A stretch of DNA of 38,205 nt from Deltaproteobacteria bacterium (GTDB lineage Bacteria > Myxococcota_A > Polyangia > JAAYKL01). Made by a program: the position numbers and the translations under genes. Under the pieces are notes generated by a model. The model did not search any database. It worked only from the letters and a program-made list of their open reading frames with translations, and was not told the origin of the DNA. Where the stretch lies: contig JAQTNF010000002.1 of NCBI GenBank assembly GCA_028713995.1, forward strand, positions 81,028 through 119,232, read 5' to 3'. Shown piece by piece: positions 15,869 through 25,019 of the stretch (position 1 is its first letter; the number at the start of each line of letters is the position of its first letter).

Positions 15869-16273
15869 ATGGCCGACATCCTCAAGGTCAAGGTCGTCAC
15901 TCCAGAGGGGGCGTGCGTCCGGGAGGACGCGAGGTCGTTCACGGCGCGCTCCGAGGTGGGCGAGTTCTGCATGCTGCCCAACCACCAGCCTATTCTGGCC
16001 GCGCTCACGCCCGGGAAGGTGGTGGTCGAGCGTCCGGGAGGCGAGAAGGTCGTTTACGCCATCGACGGTGGGTTCCTGGAGGGTGGCGTTGACCACGCCA
16101 ATGTCATCGTCGGCCGCTGCGTGGCCGCGGCGGACGTGGAGAAAGCGGCGATCGAGTCCGAGGTCGACGCCCTGACCGCCAGACTGGATGCCCTCGCGGA
16201 AAGCGACCCCACGCGGCTCGAGGTTTCCGAGGCGTTGGGGTGGGCCAAGGCGCGTCGCGAAATCTGCGAATGA
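15869..16273 (+). CDS. atpC: F0F1 ATP synthase subunit epsilon
   Basis: The 134-residue subunit has the beta-sandwich hallmarks: KVKVVTPEG at the start, ARSEVGEFCMLPNHQPILAA (the family's GEFGVLPNH segment) and AIDGGFLE. A C-terminal helical hairpin follows. It links gamma to the c ring and regulates ATP hydrolysis. It is the last gene of the operon. No clear hairpin-plus-U terminator follows, so read-through towards the EGF-repeat gene is possible. Confidence 0.94.
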   Translation: MADILKVKVVTPEGACVREDARSFTARSEVGEFCMLPNHQPILAALTPGKVVVERPGGEKVVYAIDGGFLEGGVDHANVIVGRCVAAADVEKAAIESEVDALTARLDALAESDPTRLEVSEALGWAKARREICE

Positions 16274-16332: not shown

Positions 16333-16437
16333 TCATCGAGGTTGGTGTGAAAAAGGGGGAGGAGAGTTACGGGCATGCTTATGGAGTCGGTTCGGGCGCT
16401 TGGTGATATTTCCGAAAACCTTCCAAGGAGGGGCATG

Positions 16438-18786
16438 ATGCGATTTACCGATCTTTTAGTGGCAACGCTGTGCGTCGCGGCGGCGGGCGCGTGGACCGGG
16501 TGCTCCAAAACCTCTCCGGTCGATATCGACACGAGTCTGGACGGCAGCTCAGATACCAATTCGGAAACCGAAACGAGCACGGGCACGTCGACCGACACGG
16601 ATTCCGATACCGATACGGATTCCGATACCGACAGTGATACGGACGGCGACACGGACTTGGACGCCGGTGACGGTTCAGTCCCGGACGCTGGTGACGGCGG
16701 CCTGAGTTGTTCCGAAATCGACCCGTGCGGTGAGCACGGGACCTGCCAAGATGCGGGCGGGACCATTACCTGCAAGTGTGGCGACGGGTACACTGGGACG
16801 TACTGCAACCAGTGTGATGCCGGCTACCATCCGGTCGGCGCGAGTTGCGTCGTTGACGAGACGTGCACCCCCGACCCGTGCGTGAGCGGCGAATGCACGG
16901 CGGTTGGCGGCGAGGCGCAGTGCAACTGCGATTTGGGTTGGGCCGGCGATATCTGCGATACCTGCGCGCCCGGCTTCCACGAGGACGGACCTGATTGCGT
17001 CCTTGATCAGGTTTGCTCCTCCACGAGCTGCGCCAACGACGGGATATGCGACGACACGGGCGGAGTCGTGACCTGCGAGTGCACGGGCAACCGCGACGCG
17101 GCCACGTTCTGTTACACGTGCGTTTCGGGTTATCACGAGTCCGTTGGCGTTTGTGTCGTGGACGAGACGTGCACGACCGGCCCGTCCGGCACGTGCAACG
17201 GTCGCGGCGATTGCGCGGTGGTCGGGGGCGTGGCGCAGTGCACCTGCACCGCGGCCAATACCAAGCTGCCTTCCTGCGCGTGCGTCACTGGCTTCAACAG
17301 TCACGGCGCGACGTGCGACATCAGTTGCTCTTTGTGGGGAGGGAGCTGCGGCGTCGGCGGCGACTGCGCCGACACGACCGGTCCGGCGCACTGCGCTTGC
17401 GACCCGGGCTACACCGGGGACTACTGCAACGTCTGCGACACGGGCTACCACGCCTCGGGCTCTACGTGCGTGGTGAACGAGACGTGCACTCCCGTCGACC
17501 CGTGCGTTCATGGCGATTGCACGGTGGTGGGCGGCGAGACGCAGTGCGGCTGCGATCTGGGTTGGGCCGGCGACACGTGCAACATTTGCGCGCCCGGCTT
17601 CCACGCGGACGGCCTCAATTGCGTCCTCGATCAGGTCTGCTCCGGCACAAGCTGCGCCCACGGCGGCACGTGTAACGATACGACCCATGTCGTGACGTGC
17701 ACTTGCCCCGTTTCCAGTTACTGGGATCCGGCCACCTTCTGCTACACGTGCCTTTCGGGTTACCACCAGTCAGGTGGGGCTTGTGTCGTGGACGAGACGT
17801 GCACGACCGGCCCGTCCGGTACGTGCAACGGTCACGGCAATTGCGCGGTGGTCGGGGGCGTAGCGCAGTGCACGTGCACCGCCGCCAACACGACGCTGCC
17901 ATATTGCGCGTGCGTCACGGGGTTCAACAACCACGGCGCCACGTGCGACATGGGCTGCTCGCTGTGGGGTGGAGACTGCGGCATCCACGGCACATGCAAC
18001 GACGCGACCAGCGCGGCACACTGCGCCTGCAATACCGGGTTCAGCGGGGCGTACTGCGCCACGTGCATTGACGACACCTATGACAACCCGCCCGGCAACG
18101 ACACGACCGCGACCGCGTTTCCCATCACCGGGGATCTCACCGTGACCGGACAGGTTTCTTGCACCAACCAGGACCAGGATTGGTTCTCGGTCACGCTGGA
18201 GGAAGGCGACATCATCGATGTCAGCGTGAGCTTCACGAATGCCTTGGGTGATATCAATATCTACCTCTGGTATGAATACTACGATCCACCGGCGACAACT
18301 TCGGACCGCGCCGTGGCGATCAGTGAAACAACGAACGATGTTGAGAGCTTCCATTACCAGGTGCCCACGGGCAAGACCGGCAAGTACCTTTTGCAGATCA
18401 TCGGCGCGCAGCCCACGAAGCGCAACACCTACGACCTCAATGTGGATCTGACCTTGGGCTGTGGCACTTGCCTGGGTCAGGGACGAGTGTGCGGCGACTG
18501 GGTGGACAACTGCGGCGTTCCGCAGGATTGCGGCTCGTGCGGCACGGGCGAAACCTGCGATGAATATTTCGGCGTTTGCGCGGATGCGATTTGCGATCTG
18601 CCGTACGGCTGCTGCTCAGGCACGGTCTATTGGTATTGTTATGAAAGTGTCGCCTATCCGTGGGAATGTGCGGACAACGCACAGACATGCGGCTGGATCT
18701 CCGGACCACCTCCTGGTCCCGGCTGTGATGCTCCAGGGAACCTGTTGACACCGCCCGAGGGCGCAATTGTGACTTGTCCATGGTAG
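16438..18786 (+). CDS. Large EGF-repeat surface lipoprotein with PPC-like domain
   Basis: The 782-residue protein begins with a lipoprotein signal (hydrophobic 5-20, lipobox-like AWTGC with Cys22). An Asp/Thr/Ser-rich linker follows (about 30-87, repeats of DTDSDT). Residues about 91-545 are EGF-like cysteine-rich modules (C-x-C-x-G-[YFW] patterns), mostly in two copies of a 207-residue unit. Residues about 545-672 resemble a bacterial pre-peptidase C-terminal (PPC) beta-sandwich (DQDWFSVTLEEGD). The last 110 residues are another Cys-rich region. It is probably displayed on the outer surface for adhesion or binding. AAGGAGG lies 6 bases before the ATG at 16438 and decides the start over in-frame ATGs at 16375, 16381 and 16435. 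Its stop is 28 bases before the peptide gene, so it may share that transcript. Confidence 0.85.
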   Translation: MRFTDLLVATLCVAAAGAWTGCSKTSPVDIDTSLDGSSDTNSETETSTGTSTDTDSDTDTDSDTDSDTDGDTDLDAGDGSVPDAGDGGLSCSEIDPCGEHGTCQDAGGTITCKCGDGYTGTYCNQCDAGYHPVGASCVVDETCTPDPCVSGECTAVGGEAQCNCDLGWAGDICDTCAPGFHEDGPDCVLDQVCSSTSCANDGICDDTGGVVTCECTGNRDAATFCYTCVSGYHESVGVCVVDETCTTGPSGTCNGRGDCAVVGGVAQCTCTAANTKLPSCACVTGFNSHGATCDISCSLWGGSCGVGGDCADTTGPAHCACDPGYTGDYCNVCDTGYHASGSTCVVNETCTPVDPCVHGDCTVVGGETQCGCDLGWAGDTCNICAPGFHADGLNCVLDQVCSGTSCAHGGTCNDTTHVVTCTCPVSSYWDPATFCYTCLSGYHQSGGACVVDETCTTGPSGTCNGHGNCAVVGGVAQCTCTAANTTLPYCACVTGFNNHGATCDMGCSLWGGDCGIHGTCNDATSAAHCACNTGFSGAYCATCIDDTYDNPPGNDTTATAFPITGDLTVTGQVSCTNQDQDWFSVTLEEGDIIDVSVSFTNALGDINIYLWYEYYDPPATTSDRAVAISETTNDVESFHYQVPTGKTGKYLLQIIGAQPTKRNTYDLNVDLTLGCGTCLGQGRVCGDWVDNCGVPQDCGSCGTGETCDEYFGVCADAICDLPYGCCSGTVYWYCYESVAYPWECADNAQTCGWISGPPPGPGCDAPGNLLTPPEGAIVTCPW
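16846..18066 (+). repeat. Tandem 621-bp duplication inside the EGF-repeat gene
   Basis: Two units, starting at the Cys codons at 16846 and 17467, encode about 207 residues each with the same order of modules (CVVDETC, CDLGWAGD, CVLDQVCS, DETCTTGPSGTCNG, CACVTGFN, CSLWGG). Many stretches are identical at the DNA level, which suggests a fairly recent internal duplication or gene conversion. Confidence 0.85.
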
Positions 18787-18814: not shown

Positions 18815-18982
18815 ATGATTGAGAAGAACGACCCCAAGAAGACTAATGATGTTCTGGCACCGCCCGAACGCGAACCCTACACCGCTCCTTTGATTCTTGA
18901 AGAAGAGGCGTTCGAGACGCTTGTCCTGACTTGTACAAATGCCGAAGGGTTCTGCGGTGTTCGGGTTCCCAAGAGTACATAG
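18815..18982 (+). CDS. Putative RiPP precursor peptide, 55 aa
   Basis: This 55-residue peptide has no hydrophobic signal. The charged leader (MIEKNDPKKT, Pro-rich to 25) contains Y22-T-A-P25, a YxxP motif like the one in lasso-peptide leaders that binds the PqqD-like recognition element. It is followed by LILEEEAFETLVLTC. The C-terminal part has Cys40 and Cys47 (CX6C) and ends VPKST, giving a possible core of about 16 residues with a terminal Ser-Thr. A strong GAGGGAGGG site precedes the ATG at 18815 (a GTG at 18800 is possible). It lies 17 bases before the kinase gene and upstream of PqqD-like and radical SAM genes, which is the main reason for the call. No homologue was recognised by name. 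The cleavage site and the modification are unknown. Confidence 0.75.
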   Translation: MIEKNDPKKTNDVLAPPEREPYTAPLILEEEAFETLVLTCTNAEGFCGVRVPKST

Positions 18983-18999
18983 CGTTTTGAGACTGCTCG

Positions 19000-19842
19000 A
19001 TGCTATTGCCAAGCTCGTGTTCGACCTTTCGCTGGTCCATCGCTGAAAACCTCGTTGAGACGTGCATCAAAGCATCGCATCGGCCCTTGTTTGGGGATTG
19101 GATCGGCTCGCTGCATTCCTACGCCGCCGTTGAGCATGAGCCGCCGAAGCTTAGGCTCACGATCGATATCCGTCCGCTTCCCGACGACTTGATAACGCAT
19201 GCCCGTTGCGATTTTGGCTACGACGCGGCAGGCGAGATTACATCGGCCAAGCTCATTGGACAGTCCTTCGTCGGACGGCTTGTGCGCGAGCAGGGGCGGT
19301 GGTTGGGGCAGTTCACAATCGGCGGTGAGATCTCGGGTTCGATGGAAAATGTATTGCGCATCGGTCTCTCGCTTCTTTGCGAGGCGCGTGGAGATCTCTT
19401 GTTGCATGCCTCTGCCGTGGAACGCGAGGGAGCGGTCTACGTTTTTTCAGGGCCATCCGGCGCGGGGAAAACGACGATTGCCACCGAGTTGACGGCCGGC
19501 GCCACGCCCGTCGCGCTCGAACGTGTGGTGCTGCGCATCCGGGATCGCGATCACATCGAGGTGCATTCCACGCCCTTCAGCGATCCGACGCGCGTCCTGC
19601 TTGGGCCGCGTGTCGGGCGCATGGCGCGGCTGTGTTTCATCGAGCAGGCCGATCGCCACGCCTGCGACCCGCTTGCTCCATTCGCCGCTGTGCAACGGCT
19701 GTTCGCCCAGACCCTTGTCTGCTCGCGCCGGCAAGGCCAGCTTACGCGGACGCTCGACGCGGTGAGCCGGGTCGCCGAGACCGGTCGCTGCATGCGGCTG
19801 CTCTTTTGTCGCGATCCCGGTTTCTGGAACATGATAGTTTGA
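19000..19842 (+). CDS. HprK-related kinase-like protein of the peptide cluster
   Basis: The 280-residue protein has the C-terminal fold of HPr kinase/phosphorylase relatives: LLHASAVEREG at 133-143, then P-loop FSGPSGAGKTTIA (Walker A 151-158), a TPF element at 191-193 and the ending LLFCRDPGFW. The DD pair that normally follows the P-loop strand (SDD before VxL) is replaced by Leu-Glu (ALERVVL, 172-178), so catalysis may be altered. The N-terminal 120 residues match nothing I know. HprK relatives occur with PqqD-like proteins in lasso clusters, where some phosphorylate the C-terminal Ser of the precursor, and in the system NCBI calls HPr-rel-A. The adjacent peptide ends in Ser-Thr. The ribosome-binding site is weak, so coupling to the peptide gene is possible. 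Confidence 0.75.
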   Translation: MLLPSSCSTFRWSIAENLVETCIKASHRPLFGDWIGSLHSYAAVEHEPPKLRLTIDIRPLPDDLITHARCDFGYDAAGEITSAKLIGQSFVGRLVREQGRWLGQFTIGGEISGSMENVLRIGLSLLCEARGDLLLHASAVEREGAVYVFSGPSGAGKTTIATELTAGATPVALERVVLRIRDRDHIEVHSTPFSDPTRVLLGPRVGRMARLCFIEQADRHACDPLAPFAAVQRLFAQTLVCSRRQGQLTRTLDAVSRVAETGRCMRLLFCRDPGFWNMIV

Positions 19843-19856
19843 GCCAGGAGGCCGCA

Positions 19857-20141
19857 ATGGTCGAGACCGACGGTGTGTACAGAATCAACTCGCATGTGGC
19901 CTTTCGCACGTTCGGGAAAGAGCTGGTGGTCGTCGATACGCTTGGCCAGCGCCTTTTGAGGCTCAACGCCACAGGTGCCCTGGTTTTCAGACTTCTCGAC
20001 GCAGGCCAGGGCCTGCCGGAGGTCGCCGCGGCTGTGGCTCGCGCGTTCGACACGAGTGTCGAGCAGGCGCGCATCGATGCTCTTTCTTTCATCGAAGAGC
20101 TCGAGAAACGCGGGCTGGTAGAACGCCGCGTCACGACCTGA
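19857..20141 (+). CDS. PqqD-like RiPP recognition protein
   Basis: The 94-residue protein has the PqqD/RRE layout: an N-terminal beta hairpin (ELVVVDTLGQRLLRLNATGALVFRLLD), then helices of a winged-helix (GLPEVAAAVARAFD, ARIDALSFIEELEKRGLV). The segment around NATGALVFRLLD is the most typical part of the family. Such proteins bind the leader of a precursor and deliver it to a modifying enzyme, here presumably the radical SAM enzyme whose gene overlaps by one base (TGATG). AGGAGG precedes the ATG with good spacing. Confidence 0.88.
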   Translation: MVETDGVYRINSHVAFRTFGKELVVVDTLGQRLLRLNATGALVFRLLDAGQGLPEVAAAVARAFDTSVEQARIDALSFIEELEKRGLVERRVTT

Positions 20142-21172
20142 TGCCCGATTGTGAGCTCCAGCGCGAGGTCGCCATTCCAAGTCCCTCCATGTGGGATCGG
20201 ATCCAGAACGAGATCGATTTCCCTCTCGCGGTTTTGATAAGTCTGACAGGGCGCTGCCCGCTCTCGTGCGGCCATTGCTACATACCCCAAGAGGTCAAGC
20301 CAGAGCGACTGGGGACCGCGGAGCTCCTGCACCTGCTCGACGAGCTCGTGGCCGGCGGCACGTTGCGTGTCACGTTCACGGGAGGAGAGCCGGCGGTGCG
20401 CTCGGATCTCGTGGCGCTGGTGGCGGCTGCGGCAAAACGGCGGTTTGCCGTCGGCCTCAAGACGAGCGCCTTTCTTTTCGACGAGAAGAGGATCGAAACG
20501 CTGTGGAATGCAGGCCTTTCCGAGATGAATGTCAGCCTCTATCACCCGGAGGCGGCGGAGCACGATCGATTCGTGGGCGCAGAAGGGGCCTTTGCGAGAG
20601 CGGTTGGCGCGCTTCGCATGTTTCAAGCGCTGGGTGGCCGCGTGAGGGCAAGCATCGTCGCGATGGATTGGAATACCGCTGCCATTCCCCGCTTGTTGGA
20701 TTTCTGTGAAGGCGTCGGTCTATCGTACGGCGTCGACATACGAGTGACACGACGTCTCGATGGCACGGCGGAGCCTTTTCGCCATCGTGCATCGGGAAGC
20801 ATGCTCGCAATGCTGCTCGACGACCAACGGATCACGAGGCACAAGCCATTTCCTCGCCCGGCGACCGCCGACATTTGCGACGCGCGCCATGGCTGTTACG
20901 TCAATCCCGACGGCGCTATCTGGCCGTGCCCCAACCTGCCGCTGTTGCTGGGCAATATTTTCGAGAGGCCGTTCGCGGAAATCTGGCGCGATTCCGAAGG
21001 GCGGCGGCGGTTGAAGGAACTCCGCTGGGGTGACTCGGAGCGTTGCCGAGATTGCCAGATGGCCGAATCGTGCGAGCGTTGCCCTGGAGAGGCTTGGCTC
21101 GAGCATGGCAATCTTAACGAGCCCGCGACAACCGACTGTGAGCTCGCGCGTGTCTACTCAGCCAAACGCTAG
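20141..21172 (+). CDS. Radical SAM/SPASM peptide-modifying enzyme
   Basis: The 343-residue enzyme has the radical SAM motif CPLSCGHC (Cys39, Cys43, Cys46, CX3CX2C) and a GGEP stretch at 81-84. Its C-terminal SPASM domain has eight cysteines (246, 252, 263, 302, 305, 311, 314, 333) that can bind auxiliary iron-sulfur clusters. CYVNPDGAIWPCPN and LGNIFERPFAEIW are typical of SPASM proteins acting on peptides. It probably acts on the small peptide encoded upstream, using the PqqD-like protein. The chemistry (C-C, thioether or other cross-link, epimerisation) cannot be read from sequence. The ATG overlaps the stop of the preceding gene by one base. Confidence 0.93.
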   Translation: MPDCELQREVAIPSPSMWDRIQNEIDFPLAVLISLTGRCPLSCGHCYIPQEVKPERLGTAELLHLLDELVAGGTLRVTFTGGEPAVRSDLVALVAAAAKRRFAVGLKTSAFLFDEKRIETLWNAGLSEMNVSLYHPEAAEHDRFVGAEGAFARAVGALRMFQALGGRVRASIVAMDWNTAAIPRLLDFCEGVGLSYGVDIRVTRRLDGTAEPFRHRASGSMLAMLLDDQRITRHKPFPRPATADICDARHGCYVNPDGAIWPCPNLPLLLGNIFERPFAEIWRDSEGRRRLKELRWGDSERCRDCQMAESCERCPGEAWLEHGNLNEPATTDCELARVYSAKR

Positions 21173-21194
21173 TTCGGCACCGCCGAGCGCGATC

Positions 21195-22403
21195 ATGCGC
21201 TTTCCTATCGCTGACCGAGTGGCGACGGCACTCGTGGCCATGGGAGTCGCGGCCCTGGCATTCGAGGGTGTCGGGAGTTGGTCCCTCAGGGGGTTGGTGG
21301 GCGCATCGCTCTCCGACTTCTTCTTCGTGCCGGCGGCAGTATTGCTGTTGTTCACGGCTTGGCGCGAAAAGAGATGGCTTGCGACGCAGCCCGTCCTCTG
21401 GGCGATCGCGGCAATTGCCTCGTCCGGAATCCTGGCATCGCTCGTTTCCGGGCATCCTATGGACGATATCCGATACATAGCCAGGAACGGGCTCTTCGTC
21501 GTCGTGACAGCGGGCATTGCTGCACTGTCCCGGGACGGTCAGGCGAATGCGCGTATACGGGGCGGCTTCGTGGGAGCGGGTGCGGTCGCTACTGTCGTAT
21601 CTTTAGTGGGATATGGTCTGGTGCTGGCCTTTTTTAGAGACGAAGGAGGATTGAGGCCATTTGTCTTCTCGAGTGCCAATCCGGTGTTCGACGGGTGGCC
21701 GCGACTGGCCGAAACCTATGCCCATTCGCCACAGCATTTCGGCGAGTATCTCGTGGCTCTGCTGGCCGTTGCGACCTGCTGCTGGGAAGGAATTCCCACC
21801 GGCCGTTGGCGCGCGCTCCGTGGATTGATTATCGTTTTATTGTCGATCGCGTTGGTTCTCACGTTCAGCTTCGCTATCGTCGGCGGAATCGTCCCTTGCG
21901 GAGTCGCTGGAGAGGCCTGCCGCTGCGATCTTCTCGACCGAGAGCATGACGTCTATGCGGCGAAGGGAGAAGTTTGCTATCCGCAGCGATCCGCTTGGCC
22001 GAGCGGTTCGATCGAGACCGTGTACCATCAGTCCAAGAGATATGAGCTCGGCGCGTTCGCGGAGAATTCGGTGGCCGGCTTGGGACAGACGGGATATCAA
22101 ACCTACGCGGAAGAGCGCTTTCAAAGGGAGACGGGAACGTCCAATGGAAATTTCTATGGGACGACACATTCCACTTTCCCGGGTGTGTTGGCGGAAGCCG
22201 GTTCGTTGGGAGGGCTCGCCCTTGTATTTCTGGTCGCGGCCATTTCGGCAATGCGTCGAGAGAGGGTCACAAACAACGAGGGGCTTTGGTTCGGGATCGT
22301 AGCTCTTCTGGTCGTTGGAATAAACGTCGATATCCTCTCGAACAGGAACCTATGGGTGCTAGTTGGACTCCTCTTGGGAGGAGGAGGAAACCGATATGGG
22401 TGA
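21195..22403 (+). CDS. O-antigen-ligase-like polytopic membrane protein
   Basis: The 402-residue protein has many hydrophobic helices (at about 8-30, 35-50, 60-80, 90-110, 120-145, 185-210, 215-235, 335-360, 370-395) and one large hydrophilic loop (about 236-320). The segment HSTFPGVLAEAGSLGG resembles the HNxxL-x-E-x-GxxG region of the O-antigen ligase/polymerase (Wzy_C/WaaL) superfamily. The large loop has several cysteines. A GTG at 21153 is an alternative start, overlapping the radical SAM gene by 20 bases. I chose the ATG at 21195, since a membrane segment begins soon after it. It may join a glycan to a lipid or to a peptide. Its place in the cluster is only inferred from co-orientation. 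Confidence 0.65.
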   Translation: MRFPIADRVATALVAMGVAALAFEGVGSWSLRGLVGASLSDFFFVPAAVLLLFTAWREKRWLATQPVLWAIAAIASSGILASLVSGHPMDDIRYIARNGLFVVVTAGIAALSRDGQANARIRGGFVGAGAVATVVSLVGYGLVLAFFRDEGGLRPFVFSSANPVFDGWPRLAETYAHSPQHFGEYLVALLAVATCCWEGIPTGRWRALRGLIIVLLSIALVLTFSFAIVGGIVPCGVAGEACRCDLLDREHDVYAAKGEVCYPQRSAWPSGSIETVYHQSKRYELGAFAENSVAGLGQTGYQTYAEERFQRETGTSNGNFYGTTHSTFPGVLAEAGSLGGLALVFLVAAISAMRRERVTNNEGLWFGIVALLVVGINVDILSNRNLWVLVGLLLGGGGNRYG

Positions 22404-22833
22404 AGACAAGACAAGAACGTTCCTCACGAAAGGCTCGAGCATGCTGCCCACCATCCTCCCAGGCAGCCGACTGCATGTGGCCCCGGCGCGGCCCGACGAT
22501 CTGCGGCCCGGCGATGTGGCGTGCTATATCGGGCAAGGAAGCGCCGTGGTCGCTCACCGCGTGGTGAGCACTGTTGGTGGGGAGGGAAATGGTACTCTCG
22601 TCGTCAAAGGAGACTCCCAGCCGACGCCGGAGACGCTGCCGAAGAGCGCCGTCATGTACAGGGTCCTGCGCGTCGAGAACAGGTTCATCTCCTACGACAC
22701 CGACGGGATGATGGGACGCGCGTTGGCCCGGATGGCGCTCTCCGATGGAATCGCGGTGAAGGGGCTTCAATGCGCCCTTCGCACGGGAATCTCACTTGCG
22801 GTCTTTGTGAAAGGTTTTCTGCGGAGGCGATGA
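22396..22833 (+). CDS. S26 (SipW-like) signal peptidase-type protein
   Basis: The 145-residue protein has the S26/SipW-like signature: GSSMLPTILPGS with catalytic Ser15, VAHRVV with His54, and VVKGDSQPTPE. Serine and histidine fit the archaeal/ER-like Ser-His type, rather than the Ser-Lys dyad of LepB. There is no obvious N-terminal anchor; a hydrophobic C-terminal helix (about 128-142, ISLAVFVKGFL) could attach it to the membrane. A strong GGAGGAGG lies before the ATG at 22396, which overlaps the stop of the ligase-like gene by 8 bases, indicating coupling. It may cleave the modified peptide, or a pilin-like or lipoprotein partner. Confidence 0.78.
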   Translation: MGEDKTRTFLTKGSSMLPTILPGSRLHVAPARPDDLRPGDVACYIGQGSAVVAHRVVSTVGGEGNGTLVVKGDSQPTPETLPKSAVMYRVLRVENRFISYDTDGMMGRALARMALSDGIAVKGLQCALRTGISLAVFVKGFLRRR

Positions 22834-23877: not shown

Positions 23878-24966
23878 CTACGGAAGAAACTTGTGGGGCG
23901 CCGCCAGCTTTTCCGGAAGATATGTGTCGATGACGTAGTTGAGGCCGTGCTTGGCGAGGGCCTGCTGCTCGGCGCGGACACCCATCTCCATGAGAAGGTT
24001 GAACGCATCCTGCCACTCGCGGTGGTGCTGCACGAACGGATCGTTCTTGATGGCGTCCTGGGCGCGTTTGATGTCCACTTCCTTCAGGGGGTGGGTCGGA
24101 AGCTTGTATTTCTTGATGTCCATGGGGGTGATGCCCAGAAAGCGCGCCTGCGGGACGCAGAAAAACTCGTTCACGTGCGCCGCGTTGCCTGAGCCGACCT
24201 TGAGCGTGCGGTAGATGTTGGCGATGCCGTACGGATCGCAGTCGACAAACACATAGACCGGGATGCGCTTGAAGTCGGCGAGCCTGCGTACGAAGCGGCG
24301 GCAGGCGCGGGTCGGGACGCCTCCCATGGAGATGAGGATGCAGTTGGCCTTCTTCCAGTAGGAGTGCTGTTGCAACCGCTGGTACATGCCGGCGGTCTCG
24401 ATGGCCAGGATGAACTCGGCGTCGGTCTCGAACTCCAGGTGCTCCACGTTGATGGGGATGGAATAGGCGCCGGAGCCGAACTTGGTGCAGTCGATGCGCA
24501 GCTTCTTCTTGCTGTCGCGATCGGTGTCGATCACGATCAGGTTTCCGGAGACCGCGCCGCCCTTCTCCTCCGGGATGAAGCCGAGCTGCTCGCGGTTGAC
24601 GCTGAAGTACGCCTCGATGTCCTCGATGATCATGTCGGATTCGGGCTGCTCGTCGAAGCGGCAGTCGCCCCAGTTCTTCGAGACGTAGTAGGCTTCCCTC
24701 TTGGTGGCGATGTCGTCGCCCTCCACCAGGGTCTTCGACAGGGACATCATGCGCAGGGTCTGGGCGAACGTCTTCACGGTGTTGACCGTGAGCGCCCGCT
24801 CCTTGGTCTTGCCGAGCAGCTCGAAGAAGCCGGTGCGCGGCTTGTAGACCACGTTCTGCAAGGAGCGAACGGGCATCTTGAGGCTCGGCTTGCGACCCTT
24901 CTGGATGCGGCTGTGGACGTCCTTGGCCGCGGCGACGATGGCGTCGAGGACTTTCACGTCTGGCAC
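23878..24966 (-). CDS. DNA topoisomerase VI subunit A (Spo11-like)
   Basis: The 362-residue protein carries the two domains of the TopoVI-A/Spo11 family: a winged-helix (5Y-CAP) domain with the catalytic tyrosine region TKREAYYVSKNWGD (Tyr93/Tyr94), and a Toprim domain with Glu190 (FILAIETAGMY) and VDCDPYG (Asp242, Asp244) for magnesium. The enzyme makes double-strand breaks and, with the B subunit, passes DNA through them. No B subunit is encoded next to it. The GTG at 24966 is chosen because AAGGAGATCCGC lies just before it and a promoter starts transcription near 25013; a GTG at 25014 would leave almost no leader. Confidence 0.9.
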   Translation of the reverse strand: MPDVKVLDAIVAAAKDVHSRIQKGRKPSLKMPVRSLQNVVYKPRTGFFELLGKTKERALTVNTVKTFAQTLRMMSLSKTLVEGDDIATKREAYYVSKNWGDCRFDEQPESDMIIEDIEAYFSVNREQLGFIPEEKGGAVSGNLIVIDTDRDSKKKLRIDCTKFGSGAYSIPINVEHLEFETDAEFILAIETAGMYQRLQQHSYWKKANCILISMGGVPTRACRRFVRRLADFKRIPVYVFVDCDPYGIANIYRTLKVGSGNAAHVNEFFCVPQARFLGITPMDIKKYKLPTHPLKEVDIKRAQDAIKNDPFVQHHREWQDAFNLLMEMGVRAEQQALAKHGLNYVIDTYLPEKLAAPHKFLP

Positions 24967-25019
24967 GCGGATCTCCTTCTGTCGGGGAAACCGGCTCCTT
25001 GGCCGGCCGGTCACGTCCG

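Follow-up and report, generated by a model that had tools for sequence, protein, structure and literature searches.

What product does a small peptide cassette in a member of the Myxococcota make, and why does a lipoprotein gene accompany it? The cassette lies in a stretch of 38,205 nucleotides, referred to here as the window, from Deltaproteobacteria bacterium (GTDB lineage Bacteria; Myxococcota_A; Polyangia; JAAYKL01; GenBank assembly GCA_028713995.1, contig JAQTNF010000002.1, positions 81,028 to 119,232), on contig 2 of a 4.98 Mb genome that is 97% complete. Its genes probably specify a ribosomally synthesized and post-translationally modified peptide (RiPP) pathway resembling both the linear polyphosphorylated peptide (LPP) pathway of Bacillota (LppA/K/B/S/D/N, PMC13381572) and the paeninodin-type lasso pathways that carry a peptide kinase, with an added SPASM-type radical S-adenosylmethionine (SAM) enzyme, and operating together with a large surface lipoprotein.

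Gene content and conservation of the cassette

The genes follow one another on one strand, downstream of the ATP synthase genes atpA, atpG, atpD and atpC, which end at 16273. In the list below, RRE denotes a RiPP recognition element and AF2 an AlphaFold2 model.

16375..18786, + strand: lipoprotein-like protein of 803 aa, directly upstream of the peptide, with Pfam EGF and PPC-like matches
18815..18982, + strand: precursor peptide of 55 aa, from a 29-sequence family, with a purine-rich AGGGAGG upstream of its ATG
18878..18889, + strand: YxxP motif (YTAP), predicted RRE-binding part of the leader, from family conservation and from LppB, which binds the same motif in PDB 9x8z (PMC13381572)
18911..18919, + strand: FET motif, predicted leader end and S26 cleavage site, conserved in the peptides; LPP leaders end in FET
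18920..18979, + strand: predicted 20-aa core LVLTCTNAEGFCGVRVPKST with two Cys and C-terminal Ser-Thr, the cut site being a prediction
19000..19842, + strand: HprK/PEPCK-fold P-loop kinase, from invariant residues and AF2 fold match
19857..20141, + strand: PqqD-family RRE (PF05402), best PDB match LppB 9x8z
20141..21172, + strand: radical SAM/SPASM enzyme (PF04055 and PF13186), with an invariant Cys set
21195..22403, + strand: accessory Wzy/O-antigen-ligase-like polytopic membrane protein, from identity to the L062 and L063 proteins
22396..22833, + strand: SipW/archaeal-type S26 peptidase lacking an N-terminal membrane anchor, with S15-H54-D73, from conserved residues and AF2 fold match

The first-pass annotation had described the six co-oriented genes from peptide to S26 peptidase as a RiPP-type cassette, and their coordinates and junctions are as it gave them (17 bases from the peptide stop to the kinase, a 1-base overlap of PqqD and radical SAM genes, and an 8-base overlap of Wzy-like and S26 genes). 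Its limits, 18815-22833, are too narrow and leave out the conserved partner lipoprotein at 16375-18786. The RiPP assignment itself is borne out by the neighbourhoods of related genomes, where the genes are not regularly found apart and a conserved small peptide stands beside them: they recur together in 8 more family genomes and, in rearranged order, elsewhere in the class. A close homolog of the radical SAM enzyme is present in 9 of the 14 family genomes (the window and the 8 others; since the genomes are related, these and the following counts are not of independent events). In eight of these nine loci the block follows atpC, and the ninth starts inside the lipoprotein at a contig end. The order peptide, kinase, PqqD, radical SAM is kept in all nine, with S26 next in eight and on the opposite strand in the remaining one.

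Across the class, a radical SAM profile matches 40 of 144 genomes. Twenty class-level loci, several of which stop at contig ends, contain the peptide (17), PqqD (17), kinase (16), a giant lipoprotein (14) and S26 (11). Outside the window family the gene order is kinase, PqqD, radical SAM, lipoprotein, peptide, S26, and this difference implies that synteny alone does not explain why the set stays together.

The peptide and its predicted maturation

The peptide, whose C-terminal part reads ...EPYTAPLILEEEAFETLVLTCTNAEGFCGVRVPKST, has 55 residues, a YxxP motif, two cysteines and a Ser-Thr end, as first annotated. It was compared within a family of 29 peptides, using a profile built solely on the region from YxxP to the second Cys. 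The family pattern is [YW]xxPx[IV]...FET...C...C, with 18 residues from Y to the first Cys in 24 of the 29 members, and with F, E and T at -7, -6 and -5 before this Cys in 20, 19 and 18 members, respectively. All 29 have the second Cys, nearly always 6-10 residues from the end. Ser or Thr is the last residue in 25 peptides and lies within the last two residues in every one; in a within-core permutation of the first 16 peptides, the observed count of terminal Ser/Thr was never reached in 20,000 trials. Because the C-terminus lies outside the search profile, the terminal Ser/Thr is not a selection effect, though the peptides are nonetheless related. Peptide lipidation was considered and rejected, as the residues before the first Cys do not fit a lipobox and the N-terminus is not hydrophobic.

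The PqqD protein scores 51.7 bits to PF05402 (Pfam gathering cut-off 23.4), and its top hit in the PDB is 9x8z, the crystal structure of LppB in complex with the LppA leader (E 4.6e-4). Its N37, D74 and F78 align with LppB N33, D70 and F74, the residues holding the YxxP leader, and the equivalents are conserved. Since N33 and D70 are also used by other lasso-type RREs, the alignment indicates fitness for YxxP binding and not membership of the LPP group.

The radical SAM enzyme likewise passes the cut-offs of the Pfam hidden Markov models (HMMs; Radical_SAM PF04055, 76.4 bits; SPASM PF13186, 38.4 bits). Its CxxxCxxC motif is present, as are all the SPASM cysteines; Cys 39/43/46 and C246, C263, C302, C305, C311, C314 and C333 are invariant in 10 relatives. 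None of the NCBIfam models scored above its cut-off with this protein. The same genome has a second, diverged cassette on contig 23 (L027, 8475-10934). It encodes PqqD, radical SAM and HprK-like kinase proteins and a two-Cys peptide with RS at its end; its gene order differs, and no large lipoprotein lies nearby. Four further radical SAM loci of this genome (L028-L031) lack a PqqD/kinase/S26/peptide set. On contig 57 of genome G000, at about 17298-18599, radical SAM and Asp/Ser/Thr-rich stalk matches occur in one open frame of 694 aa, a possible fusion.

For the kinase and the S26 peptidase, the first-pass identities fell below HMM cut-offs and were recovered from predicted folds. HprK-related models match the kinase only locally (22 bits, cut-off 200), whereas its AF2 model (predicted local distance difference test, pLDDT, 84) matches PEPCK (E 1e-7) and HprK/P (E about 1e-5). 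H136, G151, G156 and K157, including the His and the P-loop Lys, are invariant in 24 relatives. Judged from its residues, kinase activity is likely but not assured, because the first Asp of the His-Lys-Asp-Asp motif of lasso kinases is missing in the window-family kinases and the second is Glu in the window. The S26 protein scores 41.9 bits to the archaeal-type signal peptidase I model (cut-off 51.85), and the best fold matches of its AF2 model (pLDDT 93) are signal peptidases. S15, H54 and D73 are conserved, as are G13, M16, P18 and G72; the N-terminal membrane segment is absent, and the Ser-to-His spacing of 39 equals that of LppS S29-H68 (the LppS Asp is D93). In two window-family members that also carry a giant lipoprotein with FG-GAP domains and a Wzy-like gene, Cys replaces the nucleophilic Ser (L062, 9548-9958, GECMDP; L063, 11043-11456, GGCMAP).

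The O-antigen-ligase-like label was the weakest of the original assignments. The window protein has no Pfam match and thus does not reach the cut-off of Wzy_C (PF04932), while its two nearest relatives, the L062 and L063 proteins (35-36% identical to it), also stay below it (27.0 and 31.1 bits, cut-off 31.7). The gene had been counted as part of the combination; we reject it as a core component and consider it accessory, since it occurs in only 3 of the 9 family cassettes (the window, G009 and G010).

The sequence itself shows which genes are present and conserved, the motifs in the peptide, the catalytic residues of the enzymes, and that lipoprotein and peptide adjoin. From this we infer an order of steps, their chemistry, the phosphorylation and cleavage sites, export, and a role for the lipoprotein. 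The PqqD protein would grip the YxxPxI leader and present the peptide; the radical SAM/SPASM enzyme would modify the Cys-containing core, the likeliest guess being a cross-link, thioether or other, that involves one or both Cys; the HprK-like kinase would phosphorylate the C-terminal Ser/Thr; and the soluble SipW-like S26 peptidase would cut after FET, freeing the core of roughly 20 residues. The core would then act outside the cell together with the lipoprotein encoded upstream. RRE-guided core modification, C-terminal phosphorylation and release are modelled on two precedents. LPP biosynthesis relies on an RRE that presents the peptide, a kinase that phosphorylates a Ser, and an S26 peptidase whose cut, behind the T of FET, requires the RRE (PMC13381572); in lasso pathways, HprK-like kinases phosphorylate the C-terminal Ser (PMC9266682). 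Cooperation of product and lipoprotein is suggested by an adjacency that survives changes of gene order and of RiPP type.

The lipoprotein partner

The window lipoprotein has an Asp/Ser/Thr-rich stalk, EGF-like repeats and a PPC-like region, and 28 bases separate its gene from the peptide ATG. An EGF/PPC lipoprotein (569 aa or longer) is present in the window and five relatives, occupying the same position in L019, L021, L023, L024 and L026. The EGF part is unique within its genome. The stalk was rejected as linkage evidence, as 33 other places in the genome match it. Behind a second PqqD/radical SAM/peptide unit in genome G007 (L025, 7446-10665) lies the gene of a stalked lipoprotein that carries CBM6 and a sialic-acid-esterase-like (SASA) domain.

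At class level, the gene after radical SAM encodes a lipoprotein of 1220-1420 aa with Ig-like, fn3 and FG-GAP domains, and the peptide gene comes next. Homology among these giants extends over most of the protein (about 25-44% identity between families), and the group includes those of G009 and G010 of the window family. In 16 relatives, 9-104 bases lie between the lipoprotein stop and the first Met of the peptide; in L077 the first in-frame Met precedes the lipoprotein stop, a later Met being the likelier start, and in L071 no Met was found in frame. A large lipoprotein near the cassette of L068 (3821-6784) has NHL repeats and not FG-GAP, and is likely another propeller type.

A search for the giant alone matches 37 of the 144 class genomes. 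Giant and radical SAM enzyme occur together in 22 genomes, with 10.3 expected (Fisher p 1.9e-6), and in 19 of these the two lie within 1.5 kb. Further giants from the phylum level, found independently of the cassette, all adjoin a PqqD/kinase cassette (five of five), four of the radical SAM type and one of the lasso type. Several giants without a radical SAM enzyme adjoin lasso clusters with cyclase, PqqD and kinase, mostly with B2 and some with an NTP transferase. FG-GAP giants have a paeninodin-like lasso cluster next to them (with Asn-synthase cyclase, PqqD and HprK-like kinase) in L100, L101, L107, L112, L113, L114 and L120, a pairing for which no description was found in open-access literature. 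For the FG-GAP giants the case for joint action of product and lipoprotein is strong; for the EGF protein of the window it comes down to position.

Elsewhere in the window (23878-25014, minus strand) lies a gene for a protein like topoisomerase VI subunit A/Spo11 (PF21180, 200 bits), here in a bacterial genome.

Related systems and rival explanations

The closest described system is LPP. Shared features are a short precursor with a YxxPx[hydrophobic]...FET leader, a discrete LppB-type RRE, an HprK-like kinase and a SipW-like Ser-His-Asp S26 peptidase, with cleavage predicted in the window. The window differs in adding a radical SAM/SPASM enzyme and a lipoprotein, in its Myxococcota host, and in a core with two Cys and a conserved C-terminal Ser/Thr, where LPP has a Ser at core position 3. 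Its leader has YxxPxI and FET but lacks the HQ of the LPP leader (YxxPxVLxHQxIxFETxxS) and is two residues shorter in spacing. Neither an LPP-type NTP transferase nor an MsbA-like transporter was identified in the window cassette or in the cassettes on the family-locus maps. Membership of the LPP group is not claimed, because these two cluster genes are absent and the leader spacing differs.

Paeninodin-type lasso pathways with a PadeK/ThcoK-like kinase (PMC9266682) share the [Y/W]xxP leader, a PqqD-like B1 and an HprK-like kinase targeting a C-terminal Ser, and the same giant lipoprotein family adjoins such clusters in relatives, whereas the window cassette has radical SAM and S26 proteins and no cyclase or B2 protease. 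A lasso product was rejected on this basis: no window cassette protein matches Asn_synthase or Transglut_core3, both of which are found beside giants in relatives. SynChlorMet (NCBIfam ScmA-F) also combines HprK-like, PqqD-like and SPASM radical SAM proteins, but the window scores are far below the cut-offs (ScmC 21.6/125, ScmD 16.3/100, ScmE 82.4/400). SynChlorMet has two SPASM enzymes and, to our knowledge, no S26 peptidase. Pyrroloquinoline quinone (PQQ), mycofactocin and GeoRSP systems share a PqqD-like protein and a SPASM maturase acting on a small peptide; scores to their models are again below cut-off (radical SAM PqqE 111.7/381, GeoRSP 108.4/400), and we know of no kinase or S26 peptidase among their features.

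The first-pass annotation did not recognise the combination as a described one. The set of peptide, HprK-like kinase, RRE and S26 peptidase is known from LPP, while the added SPASM enzyme is not in that paper (PMC13381572), and open-access literature on HprK, PqqD, radical SAM and S26 together, on SynChlorMet, and on FG-GAP with RiPP genes gave no description beyond it. The added enzyme and the lipoprotein pairing may be new; no report of either was found in that literature, and one may exist elsewhere. Overall, the original interpretation is partly supported.

Several observations weigh against the proposed pathway and its partnership with the lipoprotein. FET lies two residues closer to YxxP than in LPP (Y at -14, LPP -16), the acidic residues of the kinase motif are altered, and no exporter was found in the cassette. 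Between the window EGF lipoprotein and the FG-GAP giants there is no homology, and position is all they share; G013 has the cassette and no lipoprotein; roughly twelve giant loci, of which some are truncated by contig ends, have no cassette nearby; and the kinship of the genomes compared bears on every count given above.

Some of these points would suit an ordinary secreted RiPP, antibacterial or signalling, with the lipoprotein as a syntenic neighbour inherited vertically beside the ATP synthase operon. The position after atpC in eight of nine family loci could be plain synteny, Asp/Ser/Thr-rich stalk lipoproteins are common in the genome, and G013 does without the lipoprotein; we nevertheless consider this explanation unlikely, since lipoprotein and peptide stay neighbours outside the family despite a changed gene order, and full-length homologous giants adjoin two chemically different RiPP types. 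The latter fact also bears on a structural alternative, in which the peptide serves as a protein-derived subunit, redox or structural, docking on the FG-GAP propeller of the lipoprotein. In quinohemoprotein amine dehydrogenase (QHNDH), a small gamma subunit made by a SPASM enzyme is seated on a beta-propeller, and by analogy the SPASM enzyme, small Cys peptide, dedicated leader peptidase and FG-GAP propeller of the class-level partners could fit such an arrangement. The window partner is instead of the EGF/PPC type, giants also adjoin lasso clusters, and neither a heme nor an oxidoreductase gene turned up in the cassette (no search was aimed at QHNDH features), making this improbable. Close to the first-pass view is the attachment of a processed, phosphorylated peptide to a surface glycan with the Wzy-like protein as ligase. 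LPP clusters do lie in capsule loci, with products thought to be phosphorylated and possibly glycosylated (PMC13381572), and a Wzy_C-like protein is present in the window, L062 and L063; given that the gene is absent from six of the nine family cassettes and that neither an NTP transferase nor a glycosyltransferase was identified among the window cassette genes, we give this very little credence.

The preferred reading, a kinase-type RiPP pathway with an added SPASM step and a lipoprotein partner, would extend the recently described S26/HprK/RRE peptide logic to Gram-negative Myxococcota. More tentatively, and with rather more doubt than confidence, it suggests a Myxococcota surface system in which a large lipoprotein (with Ig-like stalk and FG-GAP propeller, or EGF/PPC) needs a modified small peptide as ligand or subunit, different lineages supplying the peptide by different RiPP chemistries (radical SAM/S26 or lasso). 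Tying RiPPs to one family of large surface lipoproteins would offer a testable answer to what the peptides are for, and the lipoprotein-peptide pairing would provide a search handle for clusters missed by peptide-centred mining.

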